41,529 nucleotides of DNA, from the IMG/VR virus record IMGVR_UViG_3300031759_000059, positions 1 to 41,529 of that record; one strand, 5' to 3'. The translations under genes and the position numbers were made by a program. The notes below the pieces were generated by a model. That model was given only the letters and a program-made list of their open reading frames with translations. It did not search any database and had not been told where the DNA came from. This document shows positions 2,221 through 39,591 of the stretch, in pieces. The stretch is from a virus. Every line of letters begins with the position of its first letter. Position 1 is the stretch's first letter.

Positions 2221-5200
2221 TTATGCTTGTGATTCGTTCCACTGAACTTGAATTTCACCTGTAACGTTAACACCAGCTGCTGTTGGTACTAGAGCAGTAA
2301 CGTTAATAGCTAGTAACTCTGGACCGTCTGGATAGATGTTAAATCCTGGAATACCACTGTTACCAATCTGTTTAACTTGACTCAAGTCTAGCTGACCTGA
2401 GTTGGTATAGTTAACTGGAATCGCAAACAAACGTTCACCACCTGTGGCCCAACTTGTACCACCACTAGCGTAACTGTAACCATTGAAACTCAATGAACCA
2501 GTGTATTGAGCTGCGCCTAAGATATTACCTGAAGCCACCTGTGTGTAGCTTGGTTGAATAGCACTTGATGGATTGTTCTGTGCGTTAAATGCCTGGTTGT
2601 ATAAGTAACTCCAAGTTGTGCTGGTAGTACTGATATTATTTGGATTTAGAATACCTTCAACTAGGTAACGTGCACCAGTTGTTTGGCTGACGTTGTTACC
2701 AGAGAAGTTAATAATCATGTTTTGTAGAATCAACTGCGCACGATTAACTAGATCACGTGTACCTAAGTCACCTGGAATTTGATTACTTACGCTTGGTGCT
2801 AGACGCATTGCAAACGCTGTAATAGTGCTAGATGTTGCTGAACTACCTGTTGGGAACGCAACGTTAGCTACTGAGTACGTATAAGCGTAACCGCGGTCAG
2901 TGTCAAAGCCGCCGTCTAGGATAACTGCACTACCCCAGTGGTTCAAGCTCGGTGCTGATGTACTGTTAATTACACGTACTGAAACGTTAGCACTATGTGG
3001 CTGAGCATTACCTGCTGAGAATGTAGTGTTTTTACCGTCTTGGAACAGGTTAAAGCTAGCTGCACGTGTCACACCTGTTACTGTAGCTGGTTGTACGTTA
3101 CTGTAAGTAGTTGGTGAGTAAACAATGTTACCGTAGGTAATACCTGTACATTTTAATATTTCGTTATCAATCAATACCCACACTGGTTGCGTTGGTGTTG
3201 GTGTTGGGAAGTGTGTAGCATCTTGTATATAGAATGTCGTATCACTTGATGTAATGCCACTATAGTTAGCACCATAGGTAGCACTGTTACCTAACAAGAT
3301 TTGATATGGTGTATCATTAATCGCTTGATAACGTGCCGGTAAGTTACCTGAACGCATATATGCTTGATAGTTAAAGTTGTTGTTCATAATTCTATGGCAG
3401 AAAATATAATCACCACGTGGGCCACGAACACCAAAGTCAATGAAACCAGCACCGTACCATGTGTACTGAATCATCAACATCTGCATCTTAGTGCCATCTA
3501 ACAAGTAACCACTTGGACCTGTGCCGTCTAGACGATCAAGGTTCCAATATTTTTGTGGATAACGTTGTTCAATAACTTTACTTGGTTTAATACGCACTTG
3601 GTTAGTTAAGCCGCGCCATACTGGACTAATTGTTAGGTTGTTGTCGTCAATAACTGATGTTACAGTGTGTGTCATACCGCGTAGGATAATTTTATCACCT
3701 GCAACAAACTGTTGTGTAAACAAGCAAGTACCGTCACCTGCACACAAGTTAGTAGCAACCTCAACTGACACTGTGCCTGTCATATAGAATGTAGCTGCAC
3801 GTAGGACTACACTGATTGTTACTCCGTTGTTTTCCCAGTACACGCCGTTTTGATCATCAAACAAACCAGCACGTACACTCGCACCTGCCCAGGTAACTGT
3901 AGCTATTTTAGGTTGGTTACCCACTACCGGAGTAGTACTACCTAAAGGTGTGGTTACGTTACATTGGAAGCTATTAAATCCAGTAACCTGTTGTACTAGA
4001 TAGTAGCCATTATAGCCTAGAGTGTTGATTTGTTGCACTAAAACATTAGCACCAATTTGTAGTTGATGTTCTGTGTCTGTGGTAATGTTAATAACGTTAC
4101 CAACGCCTGTACCTGTAGCAGAGATGCTGGTAATGTCAAAGTTACTGCCTAACAGTGTACCTGATGTCCACATAATACCTTTACCAGATTGGTAACGGAA
4201 ATATTTCTTAGTCTGTCTAGCTGCTGCCGCACCATGGTGTGGTGTACCAGTACCTAGGTTAACCCCACCGTCTGCCGCACGGTGTGTGAAGAATGAGTTT
4301 GGACGTACATAACAAGCACCTGTAACAGGTCCCGTAACAGTACCTCTGGCCACAAATGTAAACGTGGTTGCACTTGGAATAGTCTGAATCACCGCTGGAC
4401 CAAAACCAAATACTGTACCGCCTGAAGCGGCTATGTTAGCTAAGATTGGTGTACCTGGTGATAGACCATGTGCATAAGCACTAGTAGCTGTAATTGTACT
4501 TGGGTTAGCACCATCTGTGGTAAATGAAAGTTGTGGCAAGCTAGCTGTACCGTAGAAGCCTGCATAACGAATATAAGTGTCCCAACGGTTAACTTGATAA
4601 CCAATTGCTGTATTTGGTGGGTTCTTAGGTACATAGTCTAGATAGTTAGTATACACATCACTGACTTGATATTGTCCTTCTGTTACAGGAGTATAGTGGT
4701 TTTGTGTGCTAATAGCTGAGAATTTATTGAAACTATGACCTTTTAAGTTCATAGCCACCAATGGAACACTAGTATTACCAGCTGTGAATATACCTGATAA
4801 ACGTAAAACTAAACTGCCTGCACCTGCTTGTGCTATTGGAGTTGTGCCCATCGCACCACGTGTAAACTGCGCAATGTTAGCCTGTGCTGTACCAATTGTT
4901 GTCATCTGTACAATTTCAACGTTGGTACCACTTACTCCACCTGCGTCCCAGTAGGCTTTGGTAATAATAGTATTAGCGTACATACTGTCTTGTGGTGATG
5001 TATTTTGGTAGCCACGGTTAACGTTAATAGTTGTTGAGTTTGGCACGCTGACCACGTTGGCCATTTCTGCTTGACCAACCACACTAATACCTGCGCCTGA
5101 AGCAATAGCAATGTTGGCTGAGTTAGTGTTCCATCTGTTACGCACCACTGTTAGCGAACTTGTGCCGCCACCTGCTGTAACTACCATCAATTCTACTGGA

Positions 5201-8730: not shown

Positions 8731-10652
<1,922 letters not shown>

Positions 10653-12556: not shown

Positions 12557-12585
12557 ATTATAGTATCATTTGGTATTGTTGTCAA
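12557..12585 (-). promoter_or_regulatory. Sigma70-type promoter for the 432-aa gene
   Basis: TTGACA (12580-12585), 17 bp, TATAAT (12557-12562), minus strand. It lies directly after the tmRNA terminator and a CCTCT/AGAGG hairpin. Confidence 0.85.
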
Positions 12586-12599
12586 CCTCTTTTTAGAGG

Positions 12600-12623
12600 T
12601 AGCAAACCCGCCGAAGCGGGTTT
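12600..12623 (-). terminator. Hairpin terminator after the tmRNA coding piece
   Basis: AAACCCGC TTCG GCGGGTTT, a very stable GC stem at the 3' end of the tmRNA locus. The following T tract is weak. A second small hairpin (CCTCT/AGAGG) follows. Confidence 0.65.
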
Positions 12624-12624
12624 G

Positions 12625-12938
12625 GTTATTTTGGGTAACAAGGCATAACTGCCCCGTGGTTGCTGTTTCTTAGGCAGCTACTGCTTCTGTACCACGAGCA
12701 AAGCGGAAACCGCGGCCCATAGATACTTTTACAGTACCAAGTGTAGATGCTTTTGCATTTACGGATTTTGCTTGATTTACAGTCATCGCCTACTGTGTTG
12801 TCCACTTGCCTACTAAGCCGTCAATCGATACCATGGCACCCCCAACGAAAAACTCTCTTTCAAAAATGCTTTGGTGGAGGCGACGGGAGTCGAACCCGTG
12901 TCTTGTCCGTTTTTGGACTCGCTTCATACAACAATTCT
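12625..12938 (-). ncRNA. ssrA: Circularly permuted (two-piece) phage tmRNA
   Basis: The two halves of the tRNA-like domain are in swapped order. The acceptor piece comes first (about 12938 to 12872): a T-arm ACGGG-TTCGACT-CCCGT at 12883-12899 and the 3' strand CGCCTCC-A-CCA ending at 12872. After a 28-nt spacer (12871-12844) comes the coding piece, beginning GGGGGTG at 12843 with the tmRNA-type D-region ATGGTATCGATTGACGG. GGGGGTG pairs over all 7 positions with CGCCTCC, including the G3-U70 wobble that specifies alanine charging. The tag frame ends GRGFRFARGTEAVAA with stop TAA at 12670-12672. It resembles two-piece tmRNA tags ending in VAA, but the resume codon is not certain. The exact 5' end of the acceptor piece, next to the stop of the 105-aa gene, and the 3' end of the coding piece are estimates. 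Role: rescue of stalled ribosomes. Confidence 0.9.
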
Positions 12939-13256
12939 TTAATCCCAATATGGAAGTGGTTCCTTAGCATTTAGTATAACTTCATACTCTGGATCCAACA
13001 ACCATTTTTGGATTTTTCTTTTAGCATCACGGCGATGTGGTCTTTGCATTACCATGTTAACCCACCATCCTTGTGGACAGTTGTTAAACTTATGTGTGCC
13101 TGCATCACTGTGATACTTGTTTACTACTCGTTTATACTGCTTGGTTTTTGGGTCCATTGGCACCCAAATTAATCTGCCTGGGACTTTGATCATTTCTCTA
13201 GTTTGCCAAGCTAGATCAGTGTGGTCGCCACGCTTACGTCTACGTGTTCTAGACAT
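12939..13256 (-). CDS. Small basic hypothetical protein (105 aa)
   Basis: Not recognised. It starts MSRTRRRKRGDHTDLAWQTR, is strongly basic, and has many W, H and K residues (NCPQGWWVNMVMQRPHRRDAKRKIQKW), which suggests nucleic-acid binding. Its stop codon abuts the acceptor piece of the tmRNA, so tmRNA is probably transcribed together with it. GAGGAG ribosome site. Confidence 0.6.
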   Translation of the reverse strand: MSRTRRRKRGDHTDLAWQTREMIKVPGRLIWVPMDPKTKQYKRVVNKYHSDAGTHKFNNCPQGWWVNMVMQRPHRRDAKRKIQKWLLDPEYEVILNAKEPLPYWD

Positions 13257-14132: not shown

Positions 14133-14444
14133 TCAGGCAGCTTCTGTTTCAGTGATACCAGCACGAGCCTTGATTGCTTCTAGGCTAGGCTTAGTAACTT
14201 TAACAGTGCCAAGACCTGCATACTTTTCATCTGCCGCGTCAATTGCTGCTGCAAATTTACTGTAAAGGTCTGTGGTTTTCAAGTAGTTTACAGCGTCTAA
14301 CTTAGACATAGCTGTTGGTAACTCGATAAGGTTAATGTCTGTGTGACCATCTTTGTTTAAGATTTTAACACGGCTAACTAGATCATTAGCAAAACGAACC
14401 TTGGTCTTACCATTTAACGTTGAAATACCTGTTACTTTAAACAT
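14133..14444 (-). CDS. Hypothetical protein (103 aa)
   Basis: Starts MFKVTGISTLNGKTKVRFAN, a short beta-rich N-terminal half, then an Ala-rich helical half with YLKTTDLYSKFAAAIDAADEK and a loosely charged end AGITETEAA. No family recognised. It overlaps the upstream 68-aa gene by 8 bp and ends at a strong terminator, so it closes that operon. AAGGAG ribosome site. Confidence 0.65.
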   Translation of the reverse strand: MFKVTGISTLNGKTKVRFANDLVSRVKILNKDGHTDINLIELPTAMSKLDAVNYLKTTDLYSKFAAAIDAADEKYAGLGTVKVTKPSLEAIKARAGITETEAA

Positions 14445-15650: not shown

Positions 15651-16823
15651 TTATAAGTCTTTGATTTTTTGTAGATAGCCAACTACATTTTCCATGTAAT
15701 TTAGGGCATTTTTTTGAGATGAAAGTACAGACAACAGTTCTGGACTATTTCTACGTATTAATTCAATTTGAATACTACTATCCATTAGTTGGTGTTTGAG
15801 ATCTTCTAAGGGCAGTCTGGCCACTAACTTAAACATATTCATATCTCTGAACGGAGTCCAAGTTAATGTTTTTCCTAAATGCCAGTGTTGCCAGTCATTG
15901 GCATTGTATTCGCAACACTGTTTTATAGCTTCGGCTAGTGTTGCAGATTGTGCGGGTGTGTTGGATAATTTTTCTATGTAACTACGTTTAAAAAAATCAT
16001 AATTAAGACTATTTTTAAATCTTTCCTCAGACATTACTTTGACAAATGAAGAGCCGTGGGCCTGCAATAGCTGATCAACTGTTACAGGATTTCTGGCAGT
16101 AAATTCATCACCAGGAGCTCCGCTGGCCAACACACAATTTTCTGCCCAATAGTGAATTTGGTTATATGCCCAAAATCTACTCAAATGCCCGTGATTTTTA
16201 AGATAAAAATAATCGTGTTCTATATACCCATTTGTAACTATATGGTAGTCGTCAGTGTAGTTTTTTATATATGAAAACAGCAGAGCGGTATCCACGCCAC
16301 CACTTAAAAATACACGCAAAGGCAGTCTATTGTATTCAATAAACTGTTGAACTTTTGATTTCAGTATAAGGTCAATTTGATCAACTGCCTGATCAAATGA
16401 CACAGGCGAATCGTCAATTGAGCCAATTGGGTCAAATGCAGTATGGATTAATTCTAGGTTATTGGTAAGACCAACTATTCCATCAGTGTACTGCAACTTG
16501 CCTATTTCTCTCAGATTTGTTAATCCAAGATCATAGTCATACCAAATTGGAAAACTTCTGAGATTATCAGTTCTTATCAGCAGGCCACTGTCAGTGACTT
16601 TGATAATACAAAAATTGCCGCTATGGGTGGGAGATATTTCTTCACTGATTCTTACAGCAAAATGACTTAGATCTGCGTTGTCTAAATATCCCTTGTACCA
16701 TACAAGATCACCGTGGTAGTCTTGTACCTGTGTCCACCCATCATCTAAATTTATAACAAAATGATCAGTTTGATAGTTATGTTTAAAATTAGTCTGTGCA
16801 GTTTTGCTAATGTGAAAAAACAT
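15651..16823 (-). CDS. Asparagine-synthetase-like PP-loop protein (390 aa)
   Basis: The C-terminal half has the ATP pyrophosphatase loop VFLSGGVDTALLFSYI (about residues 170-186) and a later GAPGDEF segment, as in the AsnB synthetase domain. The N-terminal 150 residues look like a worn glutaminase-type domain (FCIIKVTDSGLLIRTDNLRS; FPIWYDYD) but lack the N-terminal catalytic Cys2, since the protein starts MFFHISK. So glutamine-dependent activity is unlikely; it may adenylate another substrate. Its ATG overlaps the ClpP stop (TAATG), so translation is coupled to clpP. Similar stand-alone PP-loop proteins sit in modification clusters. The substrate is unknown. Confidence 0.75.
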   Translation of the reverse strand: MFFHISKTAQTNFKHNYQTDHFVINLDDGWTQVQDYHGDLVWYKGYLDNADLSHFAVRISEEISPTHSGNFCIIKVTDSGLLIRTDNLRSFPIWYDYDLGLTNLREIGKLQYTDGIVGLTNNLELIHTAFDPIGSIDDSPVSFDQAVDQIDLILKSKVQQFIEYNRLPLRVFLSGGVDTALLFSYIKNYTDDYHIVTNGYIEHDYFYLKNHGHLSRFWAYNQIHYWAENCVLASGAPGDEFTARNPVTVDQLLQAHGSSFVKVMSEERFKNSLNYDFFKRSYIEKLSNTPAQSATLAEAIKQCCEYNANDWQHWHLGKTLTWTPFRDMNMFKLVARLPLEDLKHQLMDSSIQIELIRRNSPELLSVLSSQKNALNYMENVVGYLQKIKDL

Positions 16824-17443
16824 TATCTTTTTGTAATCACCTCGTCAGCAAGCCCATAGGCCACTGCTTCTTCTGCTGATAAGAATGTATCAAACTTCAT
16901 AGTGTCAAACAATTCTTCGTAGGTCTTACCTTGCGTATTATGTTTGACATAGAGTTCAGTTAGACGTTTGTTAATGCGCACACTTTCTTCAAAACTACGT
17001 TTAGCATCTTCAAACTGTAGATCTTGTACGTGTACACTACCACGTGTGCCAGGAGTACCTGAACTAACACGATGGATCATTGTACGTGCTTCTGGTAAGA
17101 CAAAACGCTTGCCTGGATGACCTGCTTGAGCAAGGAAACTACCCATACTACATGCCTGCCCAAGAACAATAGTACGCACATCTGGACGGATAAACTGCAT
17201 AGTATCATAGATAGCCAAGCCAGCAGTTACACTGCCACCTGGACTGTTGATATAGAATAAGATGTCTGCTTCTGAATTTTCTGCTTCTAGGTATAACATC
17301 TGTGCTACGATTGAACTGGCTGTATGTTCATTAACATCAGTATCTAACATCACGATACGATCTTTAAGTAGACGTGAATAAATGTCATAGGCACGTTCGC
17401 CTTGACTTGTACGTTCTACTACCATTGGGACTAAATTTGACAT
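16823..17443 (-). CDS. clpP: ClpP serine protease subunit (206 aa)
   Basis: A full-length ClpP. Nucleophile Ser99 is in [11 protein letters not shown], His124 in [11 protein letters not shown], and the catalytic Asp segment [20 protein letters not shown] is present. The oxyanion motif [16 protein letters not shown] is intact. The usual IHQP after the histidine is changed to IHRV and the handle region is divergent, so it may form its own 14-mer or mix with host ClpP. The partner ATPase (ClpX/ClpA) is not in this window. It forms one operon with the CxxC zinc-finger gene (0 bp gap) and the PP-loop gene. Possible roles are turnover of host regulators or of tmRNA-tagged peptides (inference). Confidence 0.93.
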
Positions 17444-26692: not shown

Positions 26693-27967
26693 ATGCTCCA
26701 AATTGATCATATCTACGAATTTTTTTTAAAAAATGTCTTCCCAAAATCAGAGGGATATTTTCGTCCCAATGGGGTTGTGACTAAAGATAATGTAAATGTA
26801 TTTAATAGAAATAGTTCCAATTCTAAAATATTATTCTATGATCAAGAGCCATTCCTAAATGAAGTTGAGGATTTACTTGGTTGGTTTAAAACTCCAGAAC
26901 CCTTGACTAGAATTACAATCTTTGAAGATCTTAGATACCCTAAATTTAAAGAATATTCATTAGATGAATTGTATAATCTGTATTTCAATGATCCTAATAC
27001 TGATAAAACAGCCAATCATCCAGATGTTCATGCTACTACGTTGGCTTATCCTAATACCTTTTTTAAAGAACCACATATAATAGTAGTTTCTGAAATATCA
27101 GAATATCTGCAGACTCTATTAAAAAATTATGAATTGAATCCGCTTTACTACTTTTTCCATGGCTTTGCGGCCTTAGATTGGTATCGTGGATTCTATGCTT
27201 TGAACTTTAATAAATCAATAGTCAGATCATATGACTATGATTTTACCTCGTTTAATAGAATTATCAACTATGATCGTAGCTATAGGATTTACTTGATTAG
27301 TTTGCTAAAAGCTCAAGGTCTATTAAACAAAGGGCTAGTCAGTTTTAATGTTACTGACAACGCATTTGATGATTGGCGTGATGAAGTTGCTGATCCAAAT
27401 AGTAAACTAAGCGAGTTTGCAAAACAGCACGCAGAAACTCATTTGGTTAATGTTGATAAATTAGTCATAGACCATGCAGAATTGCCAGGTAGTGCCAGTG
27501 CTGACATTCCTAGAGGAAATGATGCACTGTGGAACATTGTAACTGAAACAGTGTTTTACTACAATAAGCTACATCTAACTGAAAAGATATTCAAACCTAT
27601 CGTCAGCAAGCAACCTTTTATGCTCGTGGCTGCACCAGGTAATCTTGCCTACTTACGCAGTTATGGATTTAAAACCTTTGATGGAATCATTGATGAAAGC
27701 TACGATCTTATTCAAGACAACGATCAGCGCACTGCCGCAGTAGTTGATCAATTGGCATGGTATTGCGGTTTATCTGAAGATGAAAAATTAGATGTCATAA
27801 AGCGTATAGAACCTATTGTTTTGCACAATTTCCATCACTTTTATGGCGAATTCCGCCACATAATCACACAAGAATTAATCACTAATGCAAAGACCTTGTT
27901 TAAAGATCTAGGCTATGATGACAGTCACATTAACTACCATGATATCTATCATGTGCTGACCCATTAA
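26693..27967 (+). CDS. Glycosyltransferase-like protein, paralogue B (424 aa)
   Basis: Residues 285-370 hold the block LTEKIFKPIVSKQPFMLVAA, YLRSYGFKTFDG and IIDESYDLIQDND, matching the gene at 18400-19452 and like the donor-binding end of GT10/exostosin-like glycosyltransferases. The N-terminal half is different, with an early SKILFYDQEPFLNEVEDLLG phrase. No signal peptide or membrane segment. The ATG is 1 bp from the divergent dehydrogenase start, and no ribosome site is visible. Next to a nucleotide-sugar dehydrogenase, transfer of an acidic or modified sugar is plausible. Confidence 0.65.
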   Translation: MLQIDHIYEFFLKNVFPKSEGYFRPNGVVTKDNVNVFNRNSSNSKILFYDQEPFLNEVEDLLGWFKTPEPLTRITIFEDLRYPKFKEYSLDELYNLYFNDPNTDKTANHPDVHATTLAYPNTFFKEPHIIVVSEISEYLQTLLKNYELNPLYYFFHGFAALDWYRGFYALNFNKSIVRSYDYDFTSFNRIINYDRSYRIYLISLLKAQGLLNKGLVSFNVTDNAFDDWRDEVADPNSKLSEFAKQHAETHLVNVDKLVIDHAELPGSASADIPRGNDALWNIVTETVFYYNKLHLTEKIFKPIVSKQPFMLVAAPGNLAYLRSYGFKTFDGIIDESYDLIQDNDQRTAAVVDQLAWYCGLSEDEKLDVIKRIEPIVLHNFHHFYGEFRHIITQELITNAKTLFKDLGYDDSHINYHDIYHVLTH

Positions 27968-27980
27968 AATCTCACCTAAA

Positions 27981-27989
27981 TATAAATAC
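27981..27989 (+). promoter_or_regulatory. T4-type late promoter (TATAAATAC) of the small-membrane-protein operon
   Basis: An exact TATAAATA core plus C, 35 bases before the ATG at 28025. The leader has an AAGGAGC ribosome site. Confidence 0.7.
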
Positions 27990-28024
27990 TAGTATAATAA
28001 AAATAGTATTTCAAGGAGCAGGAC

Positions 28025-28306
28025 ATGGGTGATGTATTCAAACTCATAGGTGATTTAGGTTTTCCTATCGCAGTGGCGCTAGCAGGCGGCTATTTCGTTT
28101 ATCTCACAATTAAACTATTACTACAGGGTGTGCTAGGCTCAATCAAGGGCATGGCAGGTATTATCACAGCCTTAGATAATCGTGTAAAAACAATGAACCA
28201 TGACGTTATCCGTATTGATACTATTGTAAGTAATGCACTTGGACTTAGACCAGACACTGATCGTATTGCACGTGCAGATGGTAAGACGGACGCCCGTCGC
28301 GATTAG
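28025..28306 (+). CDS. Holin-like small membrane protein A (93 aa)
   Basis: A short N-terminus (MGDVFKLIGDLGFPIAVALA), one transmembrane segment at about residues 12-35 (GGYFVYLTIKLLLQG), then an amphipathic helix LDNRVKTMNHDVIRIDTIVSN and a charged tail. The layout matches the protein at 29774-30103 (GFPIVMAVGMGYIIKYV ... LNQKVNTVL), so they are paralogues. A single N-terminal span followed by a short coiled coil is typical of BhlA/UviB-type holin-like proteins. Late promoter upstream. Holin function is inferred. Confidence 0.6.
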   Translation: MGDVFKLIGDLGFPIAVALAGGYFVYLTIKLLLQGVLGSIKGMAGIITALDNRVKTMNHDVIRIDTIVSNALGLRPDTDRIARADGKTDARRD

Positions 28307-28331
28307 CTATATCGTAAAAATGACGCAAAGA

Positions 28332-28340
28332 TATAAATAC
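28332..28340 (+). promoter_or_regulatory. T4-type late promoter motif (TATAAATAC) before the GIY-YIG gene
   Basis: TATAAATAC ends four bases before the ATG at 28345, so a transcript from it would be nearly leaderless or would serve the genes downstream. The same motif lies before the other GIY-YIG gene. Confidence 0.5.
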
Positions 28341-28344
28341 ATAT

Positions 28345-28908
28345 ATGAACAAATATTATGTATATGAATATCTCAGAGAAAATGGCACTCCTTATTATGT
28401 AGGTAAAGGTAGTGGGTTTAGAGCGTATTGTAAAAGGCCATATAAACCCAACGACAAATCTCGCATACGAATTGTTGCTGATAAGTTGACTGAACAAGAA
28501 GCATTTAATTTAGAAGTAGAACTAATTGCAAAATACGGTAGAAAAGATTTGGGCACTGGTATTTTAAAAAACAAAACAGATGGTGGAGAAGGGCCTTCAT
28601 TGACTGATGATATTAAACAAAAAATATCTGTAGCAGGAAAAGGTAGAACCCCTTGGAACAAAGGACTTACAGCATCTACTGATAAAAGAGTAAAAGAAAA
28701 TGCTAAATCTCGTTCTCGTGTTAGATATAGCGAAGAAACAAAAAAAGCATTTATGAAGCCAAAGTCTGAAGAAGGTAAAAAAAATATGTCCGTGGGACAA
28801 CTAGGAAAAAAATATCCTAAAAAGGCTTGCGAGCATTGTGGCAAAGAAATACCAACAAATGCAATGGCTTCTCATATGAGAACTCATAAGGGAGAGATTA
28901 ATGTTTAA
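28345..28908 (+). CDS. GIY-YIG homing endonuclease with C2H2 finger (187 aa)
   Basis: GIY-YIG catalytic domain at 1-95: YYVYEYL, then PYYVGKGSGFRAYCKR with the Arg, and the metal Glu in EAFNLEVELIAKYG. It is followed by TPWNKGL and a Lys-rich NUMOD-type linker (SEETKKAFMKPKSEEGKKNM) that reads DNA. The C-terminus has a zinc finger CEHCGKEIPTNAMASHMRTH (C-x2-C-x12-H-x3-H). It sits between two small membrane genes and looks inserted into that operon; its stop overlaps the next ATG. Mobile, non-essential gene. Confidence 0.9.
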   Translation: MNKYYVYEYLRENGTPYYVGKGSGFRAYCKRPYKPNDKSRIRIVADKLTEQEAFNLEVELIAKYGRKDLGTGILKNKTDGGEGPSLTDDIKQKISVAGKGRTPWNKGLTASTDKRVKENAKSRSRVRYSEETKKAFMKPKSEEGKKNMSVGQLGKKYPKKACEHCGKEIPTNAMASHMRTHKGEINV

Positions 28909-29053
28909 ATTACCACATCAAGTATGGCTAGAGCAACAACCAAAGCATACCCAAATATGGTTAAAGAAACAAGCAATCTGGCACGATGCTGATTTGTTTA
29001 GATTCTTAGTTATAGGTATGTTATTAGGATTTTTAATTGGGCTGATATTTTAG
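28901..29053 (+). CDS. Tiny membrane protein (50 aa)
   Basis: Reads MFKLPHQVWLEQQPKHTQIW, then a hydrophobic end FLVIGMLLGFLIGLIF that spans the membrane once. GGGAGAG ribosome site 6 bases before the ATG. It overlaps the GIY-YIG stop by 8 bp and is followed by the DUF4337-like gene after 10 bp, so it belongs to the late membrane operon. Function unknown. Confidence 0.65.
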   Translation: MFKLPHQVWLEQQPKHTQIWLKKQAIWHDADLFRFLVIGMLLGFLIGLIF

Positions 29054-29063
29054 GAGATAGATA

Positions 29064-29642
29064 ATGGCATTAATGGATACAGTAATGAAAATGGTAACAC
29101 GTGAACCTAAACCAGGTGATGATAAAGCTCCGGCCACAGGCGGCCCTAGTCGCAGTGAACGCGAAGCAAAGATCAAAGGACACGCTGGCTTAGTAATTAA
29201 TATTTTTGCTGCCTTACTAGCATTTAACGTTTGGTATGGCGGTGGGTTAAGTTCAACTATTATGAACAACACTATCAAAGCAAACGATATTTGGAATTTT
29301 TATCAAGCAAAATCAATCAAACAAACAGAATACGAACTAGCTGCACAGACTACCTCTGATCCAGTCAAGGCTAAAAAGTTTAGTGAAAAAGCCGCTAATT
29401 ATGAACTAGGTGACGAAGGCAAACCTGCACTGTTTGAAAAGGCTAAAAAGTTAGAAGAAGAACGTGATCATGCTAAGAAAAAATCGCCGTGGATTGGCTA
29501 CGCTGGCACAGCATATCAACTAGCGATTGTTTTACTTTCAGCAAGTATTTTAGCAGTTAGCATGGCACTATTTTGGACCAGCTTTGGCGTATGCGCAGTT
29601 GGCATACTGCTAATGAGCCAAGGTCTTTTCCTTTGGTTCTAA
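29064..29642 (+). CDS. DUF4337-like membrane protein (192 aa)
   Basis: A polar N-terminus (PKPGDDKAPATGGPSRSERE), a first span around residues 38-60 (AGLVINIFAALLAFNVWYGG), a conserved NDIWNFYQAKSIKQTEYELA motif typical of DUF4337, a coiled Lys/Glu region (KAKKLEEERDHAKKK), then two C-terminal spans (AYQLAIVLLSASILAVSMAL; FGVCAVGILLMSQGLFLWF). Three spans in all. The family has no assigned function. Late operon, AGGAGA ribosome site. Confidence 0.75.
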   Translation: MALMDTVMKMVTREPKPGDDKAPATGGPSRSEREAKIKGHAGLVINIFAALLAFNVWYGGGLSSTIMNNTIKANDIWNFYQAKSIKQTEYELAAQTTSDPVKAKKFSEKAANYELGDEGKPALFEKAKKLEEERDHAKKKSPWIGYAGTAYQLAIVLLSASILAVSMALFWTSFGVCAVGILLMSQGLFLWF

Positions 29643-34255: not shown

Positions 34256-34349
34256 TGGCGGAGAGCGAGGGATTCGAACCCTCGATACAGGTTTAAGCCC
34301 GTATGCTTCCTTAGCAGGGAAGTGCCTTCGACCACTCGGCCAGCTCTCC
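34256..34349 (-). tRNA. tRNA-Ser(GCT)
   Basis: Acceptor GGAGAGC pairs with GCTCTCC, discriminator G, encoded CCA. Anticodon stem CTTCC/GGAAG with loop CTGCTAA; long variable arm as expected for Ser. Confidence 0.95.
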
Positions 34350-34355
34350 AATTCT

Positions 34356-34430
34356 TGGTGCTGGATGTCGGGATTGAACTGACGACCTACCGCTTACAAG
34401 GCGGTTGCTCTACCACTGAGCTAATCCAGC
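34356..34430 (-). tRNA. tRNA-Thr(TGT)
   Basis: GCTGGAT/ATCCAGC acceptor, A73, encoded CCA. Anticodon loop CTTGTAA in stem ACCGC/GCGGT. Confidence 0.95.
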
Positions 34431-34437
34431 AATTTAA

Positions 34438-34522
34438 TGGTGCCCCAAGAGAGACTTGAACTCTCACACCTTTCGGTACTTGCTTCTAAGACAAGCGTGT
34501 CTGCCAATTCCACCATCGGGGC
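34438..34522 (-). tRNA. tRNA-Leu(TAG)
   Basis: GCCCCGA/TTGGGGC acceptor, A73, CCA. Anticodon loop CTTAGAA; type II variable arm. Reads CUA. Confidence 0.94.
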
Positions 34523-34527
34523 AATAT

Positions 34528-34980
34528 TTAAACTGTTTCTTTTTTCTTTCTACCACCCTTACGATTAAGGGCAATTTTTCTTTTATGTTCTTCTGATTTA
34601 GGTTTACCTTTATTACCTGACCCATTGGTATTACCTTTTTTATTTTTACCATTCATTTTACAGGCTTCTTCATACCCATATTTGGCAACCATTCTATCCC
34701 AAGGACTATTATCTTTGCCCTGATCTATTCTATTTTCTTGTGCAGTGCCCCAATATAAATGTTTTGGGTTACTACACTTTTCATTGTTACAGGCATGGCA
34801 TATATGTATTTTATGTCCACTTGGGATACTCGTATCTAATACATGGGCCATTAGCCCTTTACAATAACTAGATAATCCACCTTTTTGTGGGCCACCTCTT
34901 TCTATGCAAGACTCCGTTAAAACTAAGTGTTGTTGCCTTGCTTCTTTAGATTGTTTAATATACTCTTCTATTAATAACAT
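34528..34980 (-). CDS. HNH homing endonuclease with NUMOD-like tail (150 aa)
   Basis: HNH core GHKIHICHACNNEKCSNPKH then LYWGTAQENRIDQG, with the zinc cysteines, the NN pair and the C-terminal His/Asn. The basic C-terminus KPKSEEHKRKIALNRKGG is a NUMOD3-type DNA-reading segment. It lies between tRNA genes and carries an AAGGAGA ribosome site and a late-like CTAAATAAA upstream. A mobile insertion in the tRNA array. Confidence 0.88.
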   Translation of the reverse strand: MLLIEEYIKQSKEARQQHLVLTESCIERGGPQKGGLSSYCKGLMAHVLDTSIPSGHKIHICHACNNEKCSNPKHLYWGTAQENRIDQGKDNSPWDRMVAKYGYEEACKMNGKNKKGNTNGSGNKGKPKSEEHKRKIALNRKGGRKKKETV

Positions 34981-35051
34981 TTTATATCTCCTTATGTTTA
35001 TTTAGCTAAACACATTGAAAAATGTCATTTATTGTAATTACCAAAATTAAT

Positions 35052-35127
35052 TGGTACATCTAACGAGATTCGAACTCGTGTTCCCGCCGTGAAAGGGCGG
35101 TGTCCTAGGCCTCTAGACGATAGATGC
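35052..35127 (-). tRNA. tRNA-Glu(TTC), copy 1
   Basis: GCATCTA/TAGATGT acceptor with G1-U72 wobble, A73, CCA. Anticodon loop CTTTCAC in stem CCGCC/GGCGG. Nearly the same as the copy at 41278. Confidence 0.95.
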
Positions 35128-35321
35128 ATTGTGTCCTGCTACCAGCACTACCTGGCCCAGAACTGAGCGGTTACTCTGTCCGTCTGTTTGCTTTGTGGTT
35201 AAAAACAGCAAAACACCCACGATACTTTCAAGGCTCCCGGCAATGGGACTTAGAGGTAGTCGCTAAACTTTATCGTGCGCACCCTGGCGTTATGGTATCA
35301 CCAATGACCCACTTTCTTTAA
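35124..35321 (+). CDS. Doubtful small plus-strand ORF between tRNAs (65 aa)
   Basis: The ORF reads MHCVLLPALPGPELSGYSVR, ALWLKTAKHPRYFQGSRQWD and KLYRAHPGVMVSPMTHFL. The composition is protein-like with normal charge, but the ATG lies in the 5' end of tRNA-Glu, no ribosome site is visible, and the surrounding array is all on the other strand. The 214-bp stretch 35128-35341 holds no tRNA that I can fold. It may instead be an RNA element or a remnant of a displaced gene. Function unknown. Confidence 0.3.
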   Translation: MHCVLLPALPGPELSGYSVRLFALWLKTAKHPRYFQGSRQWDLEVVAKLYRAHPGVMVSPMTHFL

Positions 35322-35341
35322 GGAAAAGTGTAACCTAGTGT

Positions 35342-35416
35342 TGGTTGCGGTCGCAGGACTCGAACCTGGTCTCCAGCTTATGAGGCTGGCGAGCTGCCAA
35401 TTGCTCCACCACCGCT
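35342..35416 (-). tRNA. tRNA-Met(CAT), initiator-like
   Basis: Ends GCAACCA like bacterial initiator tRNA, with an unpaired A1-A72 if the 5' end is at 35416. The D-arm (GTGGAGCAATTGGCAGCTCG) resembles tRNA-fMet. Anticodon loop CTCATAA. The anticodon stem lacks the three G-C pairs usual for initiators, and the outer T-stem pair is mismatched, so the assignment is tentative. Confidence 0.8.
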
Positions 35417-35422
35417 ATCAAC

Positions 35423-35662
35423 TTAAACGTTATTAACCCTAAGGTTAAGAACAAAATTCTCTACTAATAACTTAGTTACTGTGGCTAACAGTATTGCTTC
35501 ACCATCAGCACTATTGGTAAATTCTTCATACACTTCATAGGCTTGACTGCCAACGATTTGATAGATTCTATCTTTTTCTAAAGGCAGGCCTTCCCAATCA
35601 ATCATATCACTGAGCTCTACTTCTTTGGCCAGTTCAATAATCTCTTCTTGCGTATATTTCAT
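35423..35662 (-). CDS. Small acidic hypothetical protein (79 aa)
   Basis: Starts MKYTQEEIIELAKEVELSDM, helical and acidic, with DWEGLPLEKDRIYQIVGSQA and a long hydrophobic-patterned helix EAILLATVTKLLVENFVLNL. No family recognised. The ATG directly follows the TATAAT of a perfect promoter, so transcription would begin inside the first codons; either the start is elsewhere or the promoter mainly serves the tRNA behind it. Confidence 0.6.
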   Translation of the reverse strand: MKYTQEEIIELAKEVELSDMIDWEGLPLEKDRIYQIVGSQAYEVYEEFTNSADGEAILLATVTKLLVENFVLNLRVNNV

Positions 35663-35691
35663 ATTATACTGCCTTTTAGTGACTATGTCAA
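35663..35691 (-). promoter_or_regulatory. Sigma70-type promoter abutting the 79-aa gene
   Basis: TTGACA (35686-35691), 17 bp, TATAAT (35663-35668), immediately followed by ATG. Confidence 0.8.
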
Positions 35692-35698
35692 ATACTTA

Positions 35699-35773
35699 TG
35701 GTCCGGCGTGAGGGAATCGAACCCCCAACTAGGGAGTAGAAATCCCCTGTTATATCCATTTAACTAACACCGG
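35699..35773 (-). tRNA. tRNA-Arg(TCT)
   Basis: CCGGTGT/ACGCCGG acceptor, A73, CCA. Anticodon stem GGGGA/TCCCT with loop TTTCTAC, reading AGA. Confidence 0.9.
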
Positions 35774-35775
35774 TT

Positions 35776-35852
35776 TGGTGGGCCCACCTGGACTTGAACC
35801 AGGAATCTCCAAATTATGAGTTTGTTGCTTCAACCAATTAAGCTATAGGCCC
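35776..35852 (-). tRNA. tRNA with CAT anticodon, probably Ile2 (reads AUA after lysidine modification)
   Basis: GGGCCTA/TGGGCCC acceptor, A73, CCA. Anticodon loop CTCATAA. The arms and 3' half (GGTTCAAGTCCAGG, GGGCCCACCA) resemble bacterial tRNA-Ile2 more than elongator Met. Decoding depends on host TilS, so this is an inference. Confidence 0.8.
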
Positions 35853-35859
35853 TGTAAAA

Positions 35860-35933
35860 TGGAGCGGGATAAGGGAATCGAACCCTCACCAAAAGATTGG
35901 AAATCTCTTGTTCTGCCATTAAACTAATCCCGC
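35860..35933 (-). tRNA. tRNA-Gly(TCC)
   Basis: GCGGGAT/ATCCCGC acceptor, T73, CCA. Anticodon loop TTTCCAA. First gene behind the promoter at 35953. Confidence 0.95.
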
Positions 35934-35952
35934 ATTAACCAAACAAGCATAT

Positions 35953-35981
35953 ATTATACGCTCATTTGGCCGCTGTGTCAA
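35953..35981 (-). promoter_or_regulatory. Sigma70-type promoter of a tRNA operon (Gly-Ile2-Arg)
   Basis: TTGACA (35976-35981), 17 bp, TATAAT (35953-35958), minus strand. The -35 box overlaps the last codons of the YkuK-like gene. Confidence 0.85.
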
Positions 35982-36448
35982 CCATTTACTACGTGATGTA
36001 GACGGTCTGCCGCATAGCTAGCCGCAAACGCATTTGGTTTAACCAATGGTATGACATTACAGGTACCACGGATATAACCAATTGCTTGTTGCACCACACA
36101 GCTTGACCCATGCATTTCATCAGGGTTAATGTCTAAGTGAACTTCAACTTCACGATCTTCTAATACTTCGTGCAGTTTAAGGTATAGTTCTGAAATCTTA
36201 TATACTTCGTTCATTAGACGCATAGCTGGACGACTACGCTTTTGATCATAGTCAACTTCAACTGAGCTTTCACCAAAGATCTTACAGCCGTTTTTACCGT
36301 TAAGGTGTACAACCACTGCCAAGGTGTATTCAGCATACCATTTGCCATTTTTACGGAAACGACGGCTGTCTCCACCAATGTAGACTTTGGTTTCTGCGCT
36401 CTGTGATTCTATGTAATCACGGACATAATTGATGTCTAATTTTTTCAT
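35978..36448 (-). CDS. YkuK/DUF458-type RNase H-like protein (156 aa)
   Basis: VYIGGDSRRFRKNGKWYAEY at the N-terminus is the Asp-bearing first strand of an RNase H fold. YTLAVVVHLNGKNGCKIFG and VEVHLDINPDEMHGSS supply the next acidic residues, and the C-terminal KPNAFAASYAADRLHH is typical of the YkuK/DUF458 family. Likely a nuclease or nucleic-acid-binding protein; family members have no firm role. It lies between tRNA-Phe and the tRNA-Gly operon promoter. Confidence 0.8.
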   Translation of the reverse strand: MKKLDINYVRDYIESQSAETKVYIGGDSRRFRKNGKWYAEYTLAVVVHLNGKNGCKIFGESSVEVDYDQKRSRPAMRLMNEVYKISELYLKLHEVLEDREVEVHLDINPDEMHGSSCVVQQAIGYIRGTCNVIPLVKPNAFAASYAADRLHHVVNG

Positions 36449-36468
36449 GTTATACCTTTATTTAACGT

Positions 36469-36544
36469 TGGTGCTACCTCTTGGACTTGAACCAAGCACA
36501 CCCGACTCTTCAGGCCGGTGCTCTACCAGATGAGCTAAGGTAGC
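36469..36544 (-). tRNA. tRNA-Phe(GAA)
   Basis: GCTACCT/AGGTAGC acceptor, A73, CCA. Anticodon loop CTGAAGA in stem CCGGC/GTCGG. It sits 3 bp from the phosphatase gene. Confidence 0.93.
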
Positions 36545-36546
36545 AT

Positions 36547-36975
36547 TTAAACTAAACCTAAATAGTGCATTAGCTTGTGTTTGACCATCAAGTTAGGAAT
36601 ACGAAATTTCTCTGTATCTCTAAACCCAATCATAACGCCAACTTCTGCTACTGCACCACTGCGTGCTACACCCATATGGCAGTGTACCACTACATTCATA
36701 TGTTCATTCCATGCTTCACGTAATGCTTCAGCAATACCTTTAGCATCTTCATTGGTAATTGCTGCATCATACAAACAACCGTCAGGCTCATTGTCTTCTA
36801 CGTCTAGGAAGTAGAACTGATAGGTCTTACGGAACTGATGTTTAGGCGTTGGAAACTCTACACCAGGATCTACAATCTGGATCAGCATACTGTTGAAACC
36901 TGGGTCGTAGTGATATCCCTTGCGAACATCATCAAGACTAATATTTTCAATCCACGGTTTCATCATCGTACTCAT
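36547..36975 (-). CDS. Dual-specificity protein phosphatase-like protein (about 142 aa)
   Basis: The P-loop HCHMGVARSGAVAEVGV matches HCxxGxxRS, with Cys as nucleophile and Arg binding phosphate. It follows NEHMNVVVHCH in the usual strand. The start is taken at ATG 36975 (MSTMMKPWIENISLDDVRKG); ATG 36966 is possible, and the longer frame to 37050 runs through the upstream gene. It overlaps the 127-aa gene. Possible substrates are host Ser/Thr/Tyr phosphoproteins, RNA 5' ends or phosphosugars; none is shown. Confidence 0.85.
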   Translation of the reverse strand: MSTMMKPWIENISLDDVRKGYHYDPGFNSMLIQIVDPGVEFPTPKHQFRKTYQFYFLDVEDNEPDGCLYDAAITNEDAKGIAEALREAWNEHMNVVVHCHMGVARSGAVAEVGVMIGFRDTEKFRIPNLMVKHKLMHYLGLV

Positions 36976-37330
36976 CCTTATAATATTCTGGGTGTTTAGC
37001 ACGGACAGCAAGATGCGTACCCATTGCCGCACCACAGCTAAACCGATCACCCTCTTTGAACTTTCTGCCGTTAAGTTTGAACGGCTTTAGAACTCTATCG
37101 CCATTCCACTGACCACGTTGGATATGAATGTAACCTAGCTCGCCTAACTGCTCACGCAAACGGGCAAACTCTGGGTGGTCTTCTGAACTTGTGCTACTAC
37201 ACTTACCTTTACCTTGTAGGATTAATAGCAGTTCATCATTGGTTGGCACACGACCATTATTCGTATAAGAATTCCATTCTTTATGAATAGTCACACTAGT
37301 CATATACTCTGGGTTAATTGTAAAGTCCAT
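36947..37330 (-). CDS. Hypothetical protein (127 aa)
   Basis: The start is taken at ATG 37330 (MDFTINPEYMTSVTIHKEWN), which overlaps the previous stop as TAATG with an AAGG site before it; GTG 37339 would add three residues. A middle CSSTSSEDHPEFARLREQLG segment is followed by YIHIQRGQWNGDRVLKPFKL and GDRFSCGAAMGTHLAVRAKH. This resembles a small DNA-binding or regulatory module but no family was recognised. Part of the overlapping operon of small genes reading to the phosphatase. Confidence 0.6.
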   Translation of the reverse strand: MDFTINPEYMTSVTIHKEWNSYTNNGRVPTNDELLLILQGKGKCSSTSSEDHPEFARLREQLGELGYIHIQRGQWNGDRVLKPFKLNGRKFKEGDRFSCGAAMGTHLAVRAKHPEYYKDEYDDETVD

Positions 37331-37524
37331 TATGCCCACCTTAACAAGAATAAAGTAAATTCATCTTCGTCCATTTCTACATATTTTCGTTTACTGGCGT
37401 AATGTTGCCAGGTAAACTTATATCCTAGGTCAGACAAAAATGTTATCCAATTAATATAGTCTTGCCTATAAAATTCTTTACACAATTTTGGAAACTCATT
37501 AACACTAAAATTAATCTTATTCAT
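37330..37524 (-). CDS. Small hypothetical protein (64 aa)
   Basis: Reads MNKINFSVNEFPKLCKEFYR, then QDYINWITFLSDLGYKFTWQ and YVEMDEDEFTLFLLRWA. It is helical and aromatic-rich. It overlaps the next gene by TAATG and lies 5 bp from the 71-aa gene. Function unknown; it could be a small takeover protein. Confidence 0.55.
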   Translation of the reverse strand: MNKINFSVNEFPKLCKEFYRQDYINWITFLSDLGYKFTWQHYASKRKYVEMDEDEFTLFLLRWA

Positions 37525-37529
37525 TCAGT

Positions 37530-37745
37530 TTAAACTTTCCTGCCTTTGAACTTGGTATCTTTAGTACCACGACGTTTATACCAACCATATGGTTCACCGT
37601 TGGGTAATAGACCATCTATAACTCCTGCGACGCCCATTTCTCCTACAAACACAGGAGGCTCCTCAACATGTGTACGAAGAGCTTCTCGTGTCTCAACCCA
37701 ACTTGGTTGTTGCTTAGAAGTCATAGTCTTTTGATTCATATTCAT
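37530..37745 (-). CDS. Small hypothetical protein (71 aa)
   Basis: Starts MNMNQKTMTSKQQPSWVETR; internal ATGs at 37739 and 37724 are possible. It contains GVAGVIDGLLPNGEPYGWYK and a basic end TKDTKFKGRKV. No recognised family. It overlaps the 117-aa gene by 32 bp with the listed start, or by 11 bp with ATG 37724. Confidence 0.5.
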   Translation of the reverse strand: MNMNQKTMTSKQQPSWVETREALRTHVEEPPVFVGEMGVAGVIDGLLPNGEPYGWYKRRGTKDTKFKGRKV

Positions 37746-38067
37746 TTGCTTGTAGTATTTCCCAAGTCATAGACTTTTGGAACTGTTCGTAAGCAGAACC
37801 TTTACGCAACCAATCAGCAACAATATCTTGGCTACCCCAACTACCTGGCGGAGCAAAGTCCTGTAGCCATAGTGAATATTCTTTTAAGCGTGTTTTGTTC
37901 CAATGGTCTGCACGTGCAATAACATCGGTCCACGGATCGCAACTTAACAAACTGGTTAAGAAACTACCTGGTGGTAGAGCATATAAGAAATAGTTCTTAA
38001 GTGCTTCTTGACTTACATCAGGTAAATCACTTAGACCATTCCAATCAAATTTGGTTTTCATATTCAT
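37714..38067 (-). CDS. Hypothetical protein (117 aa)
   Basis: Starts MNMKTKFDWNGLSDLPDVSQ after a GAGG ribosome site. The middle (SLLSCDPWTDVIARADHWNK, YSLWLQDFAPPGSWGSQDIV) is Trp-rich and looks globular. No motif identified. The operon order is 54-aa, 85-aa, 117-aa, 71-aa, 64-aa, 127-aa, phosphatase, with overlaps at most joints. Confidence 0.6.
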   Translation of the reverse strand: MNMKTKFDWNGLSDLPDVSQEALKNYFLYALPPGSFLTSLLSCDPWTDVIARADHWNKTRLKEYSLWLQDFAPPGSWGSQDIVADWLRKGSAYEQFQKSMTWEILQANEYESKDYDF

Positions 38068-38302
38068 GCCCTCGCCTTCCTAGTTCATCAATTAAGCCTG
38101 CGTAGGCTAAAGTAGTTTCTTGTCCTAATGCTTCTAGCATGTTAATACAGTTAATAATATAACCTGTTTCCATATCAGATATTAGTAATACCTTGCGTTC
38201 TTTAGTTAGCCATGTTGCATAGTGCATTCTGCGGTACTCTTTAAAGTCCGCATTGTCAGGTGTGCTTAATATATCCCAGGCTAATTGTTGTTCTTCAGTC
38301 AC
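38045..38302 (-). CDS. Hypothetical protein, GTG start (85 aa)
   Basis: Begins at GTG 38302 directly after the stop of the 54-aa gene (TGA-GTG), reading as MTEEQQLAWDILSTPDNADF. Then EYRRMHYATWLTKERKVLLI and NMLEALGQETTLAYAGLIDE. Helical; no family recognised. Translation is probably coupled to the 54-aa gene. Confidence 0.6.
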   Translation of the reverse strand: MTEEQQLAWDILSTPDNADFKEYRRMHYATWLTKERKVLLISDMETGYIINCINMLEALGQETTLAYAGLIDELGRRGHEYENQI

Positions 38303-38467
38303 TCAGAAACTCTCATCTGCTGTGGCATACATATATTCAATATGTTTGACCTGATCGTGCCATTCAGCAAATCGTTCAACAGTCCACTGCCCAGATAATA
38401 CCATAGCATAGGCTGTTTCAGCATCTTCTGCTTCTTGGAACTTGGTGTATGTATTTTTATTTTTCAT
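38303..38467 (-). CDS. Small hypothetical protein, predicted leaderless (54 aa)
   Basis: Reads MKNKNTYTKFQEAEDAETAY, then WTVERFAEWHDQVKHIEYMY. The ATG lies six bases after the TATAAT at 38474-38479, and no ribosome site precedes it, the same geometry as at 14643 and 21965. It is first gene of a seven-gene early-type operon reading to the phosphatase and tRNA-Phe. Function unknown. Confidence 0.6.
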   Translation of the reverse strand: MKNKNTYTKFQEAEDAETAYAMVLSGQWTVERFAEWHDQVKHIEYMYATADESF

Positions 38468-38473
38468 ATGTGT

Positions 38474-38502
38474 ATTATACAGTCATTTAATCAAAATGTC
38501 AA
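38474..38502 (-). promoter_or_regulatory. Sigma70-type promoter, leaderless configuration
   Basis: TTGACA (38497-38502), 17 bp, TATAAT (38474-38479), then ACACAT and ATG. It starts directly after tRNA-His. Confidence 0.85.
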
Positions 38503-38503
38503 G

Positions 38504-38578
38504 TGGGGTGTCTAACGGGGTTCGAACCCGTGATGCAGGAATCACAATCCTGAATGTTACCGCTACATTATAGACACC
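38504..38578 (-). tRNA. tRNA-His(GTG)
   Basis: An encoded G(-1) pairs with C73, then GTGTCTA/TAGACAC acceptor and CCA. Anticodon loop TTGTGAT in stem CAGGA/TCCTG. The G(-1):C73 pair is the histidine identity element. Confidence 0.95.
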
Positions 38579-38580
38579 AT

Positions 38581-38654
38581 TGGAGCAGGATACGAGAATC
38601 GAACTCGTGACTAGACGTTGGCAACGTTTCGTTTTACCATTAAACTAATCCTGC
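38581..38654 (-). tRNA. tRNA-Gly(GCC)
   Basis: GCAGGAT/ATCCTGC acceptor, T73, CCA. Anticodon loop TTGCCAA; one A-C mismatch in the anticodon stem. Confidence 0.92.
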
Positions 38655-38662
38655 ATTAAAAC

Positions 38663-38740
38663 TGGAGCCCCCAGAGAGATTCGAACTCCCCACCTTTTGG
38701 TTCGTAGCCAAATGCTCTAATCCAAATGAGCTATGGAGGC
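38663..38740 (-). tRNA. tRNA-Arg(ACG)
   Basis: GCCTCCA/TGGGGGC acceptor, T73, CCA. Anticodon loop CTACGAA in stem TTTGG/CCAAA. Needs A34 to inosine for full CGN reading. Confidence 0.94.
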
Positions 38741-38741
38741 A

Positions 38742-38818
38742 TGGTAGCAATAACTAGATTCGAACTAGTGACCTTATCCGTATGAAGGATCTGCTCTGGC
38801 CAGCTGAGCTATATTGCT
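38742..38818 (-). tRNA. tRNA-Met(CAT), elongator-like
   Basis: AGCAATA/TATTGCT acceptor, A73, CCA. Anticodon loop TTCATAC. Type I D-arm (AGCTCAGCTGGCCAGAGCAG). The third CAT species of the array; Met rather than Ile2 is inferred. Confidence 0.85.
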
Positions 38819-38826
38819 ATGTTGGA

Positions 38827-39402
38827 TTATTTACGGACTATGAGCATTTGGATCTTTTCTCCAAATACTCCACAATTTAATAAGCTAGTTGGATACATAC
38901 CACAGACTTCGTTGATAGCCTGTTGTACTCCTAACATGTCTGAATCATGACAAAGTATGATTGCTTCATCTTCTGATAGTGTCATGGATTTAATAATATC
39001 ATTTTTGGCCATCTCGTATGAATGATCGCCATCAATGAATGTAACACCAAATTTAACATCATTGATTTCATCTAATAGGTATTCACTTGAATTAGTAATC
39101 AATTGAGTTCTTTTATCAATTATATTTGCTATATCTTTTGGCAATAAGTTTTCCACATCAATTGAATATAATTTACCTTTATTATTGTCCGTTAAAGCAC
39201 CACATATAGTCAAAGTTGATGTGCCATAACTACGGCCTATTTCTAATACATTTTCTGGTTTTTTAGAATAGATGATTGAATATAAAAATAGTATATCATT
39301 CTTAGAACATTTAGCATGCCCAGATGGGACCAATTCCAAAAAATCATCTAATCGATGAATGAAATCTGGATATGAGCCGTCAATAAAATCCATTGTTAAC
39401 AT
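38827..39402 (-). CDS. Class I SAM methyltransferase-like protein (191 aa)
   Basis: VLEIGRSYGTSTLTICGALT is the SAM-binding motif I (E-I-G-x-x-x-G), followed by KLYSIDVENLLPKDIANIID as motif II and VTFIDGDHSYEMAKNDIIKS, a Methyltransf_24-type DGDHSY motif. The start may be ATG 39402 or 39393. It lies alone between tRNA genes. It could methylate a sugar, a small molecule or tRNA; the family usually acts on small molecules or glycans. Confidence 0.85.
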   Translation of the reverse strand: MLTMDFIDGSYPDFIHRLDDFLELVPSGHAKCSKNDILFLYSIIYSKKPENVLEIGRSYGTSTLTICGALTDNNKGKLYSIDVENLLPKDIANIIDKRTQLITNSSEYLLDEINDVKFGVTFIDGDHSYEMAKNDIIKSMTLSEDEAIILCHDSDMLGVQQAINEVCGMYPTSLLNCGVFGEKIQMLIVRK

Positions 39403-39424
39403 AGTATATATTTACATTTATTCT

Positions 39425-39496
39425 TGGAGCACAGGGCCGGATTTGAACCGGCGGCTTTAGGGATTTGCAGTCCCCGCCATTAGGCCACTCTGGTAC
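39425..39496 (-). tRNA. tRNA-Cys(GCA), acceptor stem imperfect
   Basis: Anticodon loop CTGCAAA in stem GGGGA/TCCCT; a perfect T-stem GCCGG/CCGGC; T73 and CCA. The acceptor GTACCAG against CCTGTGC has two mismatches (positions 5 and 6). Confidence 0.8.
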
Positions 39497-39509
39497 CGTT
39501 GCGTAAAAA

Positions 39510-39583: not shown

Positions 39584-39591
39584 ATTGATTG

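Follow-up and report, generated by a model that had tools for sequence, protein, structure and literature searches.

The window, a 41,529-nucleotide stretch of viral DNA, carries a permuted (two-piece) tmRNA gene on its minus strand at about 12,600-12,960, identified by ARAGORN and Rfam. Its tag belongs to a family with a fixed interior, KVSMGRGFRF, found in phages that encode their own ClpA and ClpP; this family looks new. tmRNA frees ribosomes that have stalled and adds a tag to their products. We favour the reading, at a probability of about 0.45, that the gene specifies a phage two-piece tmRNA with a private tag, and that trans-translation with host SmpB would feed the tagged chains to phage ClpAP through the core. 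The whole window lies within the 149,159-base viral contig G001, which it matches at 100% identity over all 41,529 bases.

Identification of a permuted tmRNA gene

The window gene matched Rfam model RF04321 over its full length (model positions 1-213) with 112.8 bits (12933-12670, minus strand; cut-off 47; E 2.1e-21) and RF01850 beta_tmRNA with 98 bits (12987-12636, minus strand; cut-off 84). ARAGORN assigned it to the class tmRNA* (permuted) with the tag AKASTLGTVKVSMGRGFRFARGTEAVAA. The preliminary description had proposed a permuted two-piece tmRNA in a phage and had suggested these covariance-model and ARAGORN runs; the proposal held, the permuted models matching above cut-off. Sequence reading and a script also reproduced the 28-nt spacer that it had placed between the CCA half and the 5' half, and the pairing of the acceptor strands over 7 positions with G3-U70: GGGGGUG and CGCCUCC form 7/7 pairs across the spacer. 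The T stem pairs at 5/5 positions and its loop, TTCGACT, fits TTCGANN. With its Rfam E-value and an acceptor pairing that is kept in 14 related genes, the window tmRNA stands above chance. Seven promoter-like sites were found in the window against 4.8 expected, and the only 12/12 match is the one that bounds the tmRNA unit (Table 1).

Table 1 Features of the tmRNA locus in the window
Feature	Position	Strand	Basis or remark
Permuted tmRNA gene, ARAGORN extent	12579..12964	-	ARAGORN; RF04321 12670-12933, RF01850 12636-12987
T stem-loop ACGGG-TTCGACT-CCCGT, acceptor piece	12883..12899	-	Rfam, sequence reading, script
Acceptor 3' strand CGCCTCC	12876..12882	-	Sequence reading, script
A73 and encoded CCA tail	12872..12875	-	Sequence reading, script; CCA end at 12872
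28-nt spacer	12844..12871	-	Sequence reading, script
Acceptor 5' strand GGGGGTG, start of coding piece (G1 at 12843)	12837..12843	-	Sequence reading, script
Tag reading frame AKASTLGTVKVSMGRGFRFARGTEAVAA plus TAA, 28 codons	12670..12756	-	ARAGORN, sequence reading
Tag core KVSMGRGFRF, invariant in lineage	12700..12729	-	Comparison of relatives
Hairpin GCTG/CAGC, stop codon inside loop	12662..12678	-	Stem compensated in relatives
Terminator-like palindrome AAACCCGC-TTCG-GCGGGTTT, 3' of tmRNA gene	12603..12624	-	Scan score on + strand only
Sigma-70-type promoter match TTGACA-17-TATAAT, 12/12, next gene	12557..12585	-	Bounds tmRNA unit
ClpP, 206 aa, upstream of tmRNA	16823..17443	-	PF00574; NF001368 just above cut-off
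GroES, downstream of tmRNA	10362..10652	-	
GroEL, downstream of tmRNA	8731..10350	-	GroEL match

A tag family with a fixed interior

The tag end GRGFRFARGTEAVAA had been read correctly from the window frame, and the tag does differ from the ANDE...LAA type; it starts with AK and contains the core KVSMGRGFRF. Its proposed likeness to FxR...VAA tags proved superficial: relatives in the lineage end in ALAA, AVLA and ATFA, and the conserved element is the interior KVSMGRGFRF, which had not been highlighted.

A pattern for the tag end FARGTEAVAA matched in 10 viral stretches, which added 7 new contigs. The KVSMGRGF pattern returned 31, among which 24 held tmRNA-like genes with the full KVSMGRGFRF and 7 were dropped as chance frames. 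These 24 records were selected by patterns that fix KVSMGRGF, so the invariance of the core among them is partly by construction. The reading frame is open in all 24, which comprise 12 distinct tags of 28-30 residues with a net charge of +2 to +5. Both ends of the tag drift. The N-termini include AKAST, ANANT, ANTSK and AEKANT, and the C-termini are AVAA, ALAA, AVLA and ATFA, two branches (AVLA and ATFA) thus lacking an xAA end; most tags end in [V/L]AA, and the C-terminus is small and hydrophobic in every one. The canonical SsrA features, an N-terminal AN(D) and a C-terminal LAA/VAA, are accordingly not conserved across the lineage; in the window tag the start AK misfits and the end AVAA fits.

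ARAGORN called a tmRNA in 19/24 core-bearing records. It missed L231, where the gene runs off the locus edge, and also L364, L369, L373 and L375, four copies of a single gene in which the T-loop GGCAGAA replaces TTCGANN and the acceptor stem is intact.

The window tag had no match in PDB and none in INPHARED, where a tblastn search with a 28-aa query has little power. Borrowing of the tag from a phage protein was considered for a 103-aa ORF at 14133-14444, which has LGTVKV in common with the tag near its C-terminus, and was rejected as chance (blastp E 31 among 711 ORFs of G001). A literature search, whose coverage excluded most subscription journals and preprints, gave no account of a KVSMGRGFRF tag or of a tmRNA with phage ClpA.

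Compensatory changes in the RNA stems

For structural comparison we used 14 distinct genes picked from among the 24. The script found 7/7 acceptor pairs with G3-U70 in 14/14, with compensatory changes at positions 4-6; the search expression required G1-G3 and U70-C72, and none of the 14 genes failed it. The acceptor 5' strand occurs as GGGGGUG, GGGGAUG, GGGCCUG and GGGGUCG, and in 14/14 genes the 3' strand matches it. CCA is encoded in 13/14 genes; two contigs of one phage have no encoded CCA. The hairpin at the stop codon takes the forms GCUG/CAGC, GCAG/CUGC, GUUUG/CAAAC and UGUUUUAG/CUAAAACA. It was the script's best stem in 9/14 genes, and in the other five GCAG/CUGC was present by eye. Because this stem is compensated, the amino acids at the tag end probably follow the stem and not the reverse.

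In one gene, L267, the T stem shows 2/5 pairs in the fixed register and a shifted stem is visible. The contig of L267 (G019) and that of L228 (G016) are 95.6% alike over 4,808 aligned bases. The tRNA-like halves of their tmRNAs differ and the tag is identical, which shows exchange within the tmRNA gene.

Phage ClpP, ClpA and chaperones

The preliminary description had pointed to a ClpP in the same phage, and the 206-aa protein was confirmed, with the Ser/His motifs GQACSMG and MIH. ClpP was found in 24/24 core-family records (9/9, G022, G001 and 13/13; one ClpP is cut by the contig end). In the 12 contigs for which the distance was measured, it is encoded on the tmRNA strand, 2.5-5.2 kb upstream, and the order ClpP - tmRNA - GroES - GroEL was found in 7/7 contigs checked. 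In G425 the ClpP at this place is only 66% like that of the window, and the core is kept. By comparison, ClpP occurred in 9/37 other tmRNA-bearing viral contigs, which are mostly shorter than the long contigs of the family.

A set free of any tag filter was obtained by listing the best 80 viral loci with ClpP relatives and then running ARAGORN. Nine of these loci had a tmRNA. The core is present in eight of them, and the ninth, L301, has the ordinary tag ANDEQFLMVA; GroES and GroEL lie near ClpP in exactly the eight core-tag loci. In 71/80 of these best listed loci no tmRNA was found in the stretch, which, together with the ordinary tag of L301, indicates that ClpP does not need the core-tag tmRNA.

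A PF10431 ATPase was detected in 8 of the 22 core-family records examined, including 6/6 of those of at least 140 kb. PF10431 is also found in ClpB, ClpC and ClpX. The five of these six long records that were read whole (G001, G022, G425, G434 and G428) all encode a full-length ClpA homologue, the last four being 78-83% alike to the G001 protein. The best PDB match of the G022 protein is E. coli ClpA (E 1.3e-179), and an IGF tripeptide in the phage ClpA aligns to the IGL loop of the E. coli protein. The ClpA relative is recognised by PF10431 and phrog_4871; its NCBIfam ClpA score is 824.9, below the cut-off of 993. The components of a ClpAP protease are therefore at hand, namely a ClpP with the Ser/His motif and a ClpA with two AAA modules. 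Among non-family records PF10431 was found in 5/11, four of the 11 (L024, L035, L044 and L090) having no ARAGORN tmRNA, and in 2/7 of those with one.

G001 also encodes DnaK, DnaJ, Hsp20, GroEL and GroES. Outside the window, DnaK adjoins Hsp20 (27166-29575 of G001) and DnaJ lies 23 bp before clpA (116853-120037 of G001). SmpB (PF01668) was found in 0/24 core-family records, many of them fragments; host SmpB would serve in its place. Four long family contigs align with G001 over 47-62 kb at 70-75%. Since the family records share homologous genomes, the co-occurrence of tmRNA, ClpP and ClpA represents one lineage and not independent cases.

Constraint on the core and alternative explanations

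The eight core-bearing ClpP loci represent six distinct phages (L277/L278 and L281/L282 are duplicates), and they provided the sole test without a tag filter. Across these six phages, the ten core codon columns comprised 4 synonymous-only, 0 amino-acid-variable and 6 invariant columns. The flanks, taken as the 8 codons before the core and the last 9 codons, comprised 3 synonymous-only, 14 amino-acid-variable and 0 invariant columns (Fisher p 0.006 for core versus flank, with the relatedness of the six phages uncorrected). As trans-translation would have it, the tag frame is open from the resume codon to the stop and under coding constraint.

It is quite possible, if on balance unlikely, that this is an ordinary phage two-piece tmRNA whose AVAA/ALAA end is read by host ClpXP and whose interior is fixed by recent descent or exchange. 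The [V/L]AA ends of most family tags agree with such an origin, as do the core DNA, nearly identical between phages about 75% alike (outside the window), and the exchange at the locus seen in G016 and G019. Exchange of the whole gene, however, would not spare the core alone, and the flanks are amino-acid-variable in 14 codon columns against 0 in the core; nor do the branches ending in AVLA and ATFA carry the expected xAA.

Less probable is that conservation of the core serves the RNA: the core would be an element of the mRNA-like domain, structured or bound by a protein, and its place in the reading frame would be incidental. Four-fold sites are identical at 236/270 in the core versus 2100/3574 in clpP (45 pairs, 10 phages), an excess which argues that RNA-level constraint, codon choice or exchange also acts, and single-sequence folds allow a short G-C-rich hairpin within the core. 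Against an RNA element, RNAalifold on the core region gave little covariation (covariance term 1.6), all 4 variable columns of the filter-free set are synonymous, and variation of the core across 21 genes is confined to 6 positions, all of them third positions, a result partly forced by the search pattern.

The length and charge of the tag and its fixed interior would also suit a basic peptide signal that is not mainly a degron and that sequesters, localises or inhibits tagged chains or a host factor. We regard this as improbable, given the small hydrophobic C-terminus of every tag and the phage protease in every family record. That the gene is a decayed or non-functional remnant, as the branch with the odd T-loop missed by ARAGORN and the two CCA-less contigs of one phage might hint, is scarcely credible for a window copy scoring 112.8 bits, with compensated stems in its relatives and a frame open in all 24.

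A possible route from the tag to a phage protease

The phage gene has a permuted tRNA-like domain whose acceptor stems are compensated, and a tag frame with a core that varies only synonymously; the hairpin at the stop codon covaries. The processing, charging and SmpB use of permuted tmRNAs are known biology. They are treated in passages of PMC11915505. By that pathway, the spacer would be cut out by RNase P and 3' processing and the two RNA pieces would stay paired; host AlaRS would charge the acceptor, whose G3-U70 element was checked. Host SmpB would then bring the tmRNA to stalled ribosomes, where the 28-residue tag would be added. In the most speculative step, the core KVSMGRGFRF and not the drifting C-terminus might be recognised by phage ClpAP or its adaptor. 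Chains made from broken messages of phage or host would in this way be fed to the phage protease during infection, and the phage chaperones would handle the rest.

A core that addresses phage ClpAP would explain both the fixed interior beside a drifting C-terminal end and the keeping of tmRNA, ClpP and ClpA together in the lineage. The earlier idea that tagged peptides go to a phage protease gained from the phage ClpA on the parent contig; the targeting of tag to protease, and with it the link between ClpA and the core, is what we infer. More tentatively, the phage may run rescue and degradation itself with its own tmRNA, ClpA, ClpP and five chaperones, its ClpA reading KVSMGRGFRF as a private internal degron that host ClpXP may ignore, and may borrow only SmpB and the processing enzymes. 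On why phages carry tmRNA, passages of PMC9004378 offer only conjectures. The fixed interior, the drifting degron end and the phage ClpA and ClpP turn the question into a testable one: are tagged chains directed to the protease of the phage? If they are, tmRNA degrons would come in a second kind, an internal one, usable as an orthogonal degradation tag.

Host and other features of the window

The GroEL of the window looks proteobacterial, its best 80 matches listed, at 69-75%, including many Betaproteobacteria and also Gammaproteobacteria such as Rodentibacter. Five such bacterial genomes have the standard tmRNA tags ANDERFALAA (three), ANDDNYALAA and ANDETYALAA. An origin in a betaproteobacterial host was considered and not supported; the tag core occurs in 0/369 genomes of that class. 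Matches to Brevundimonas phages were also rejected, being limited to a 40-nt T-arm. ARAGORN called no tmRNA in a 3,040-base stretch of Kabachok, among tRNAs, and none was called in the contig L004, whose neighbour gene is 67% alike.

L009 holds at 4349-4518 a very compact permuted tmRNA-like match (RF04321, 70.6 bits; frame end VEMAMAA) that ARAGORN misses. In the window itself, 25 tRNA genes at 34256-41482 are interspersed with homing-endonuclease-like ORFs (GIY-YIG and HNH names are PHROG labels), and a 674-aa protein at 32008-34032 matches phrog_35576 (E 2.9e-210); by eye we take it to resemble a CHASE2-adenylate cyclase.

Comparison with known systems

Two-piece phage tmRNAs are already known, and the permuted form itself is not new. 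Passages of PMC9004378 describe one in the methylophage Melnitz and report that ARAGORN classed 53 of 133 unique tmRNA structures from phages as two-piece; a passage of PMC11915505 lists 79 unique tmRNA sequences from bacteriophages, whatever their form. Two scans of viral contigs gave permuted tmRNAs in 50/119 and 106/119 of the loci listed, figures that are not prevalences, as both scan patterns favour the permuted form. The expectation that a permuted form would be unusual in a phage therefore did not stand. Among the matches listed, the median tag length was 14 and 10, and tags of at least 24 residues made up 4/50 and 12/106, four of these 12 belonging to the KVSMGRGFRF family.

The window gene shares with the permuted tmRNAs of RF04321 and RF01850 the gene order, the acceptor stem with G3-U70, the T arm, the spacer and the positions of the resume and stop codons. 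It differs in its 28-codon tag, which has a long insertion against the model, in the core KVSMGRGFRF, and in that neither an N-terminal AN nor a C-terminal LAA is kept across its lineage. Melnitz is likewise a large phage with a permuted tmRNA, described in PMC9004378 as under a glutamine riboswitch, whereas no riboswitch scored above the Rfam cut-off in the window; a conserved interior tag block is not described in main-text passages of that paper. Bacillus phage G and mycobacteriophages also have tmRNA genes, and in the passages of PMC4131195 that list ssrA phages permuted phage forms are undiscussed; the word 'permuted' occurs 0 times in that paper.

A second viral tag family (L049, L398, L458, L459, L475 and L488) likewise joins a permuted tmRNA to a tag of 27-31 residues. 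Its interior, ADTF[DE]F...FTGN[TS]V, is unrelated, its tags end near VALAA, and the window ClpP was not found in those six stretches. With bacterial SsrA and ClpXP/ClpAP the phage lineage has in common an Ala-rich hydrophobic C-terminus and the presence of ClpA and ClpP homologues; here, in contrast, ClpA and ClpP are encoded by the phage and it is the interior of the tag that is conserved.
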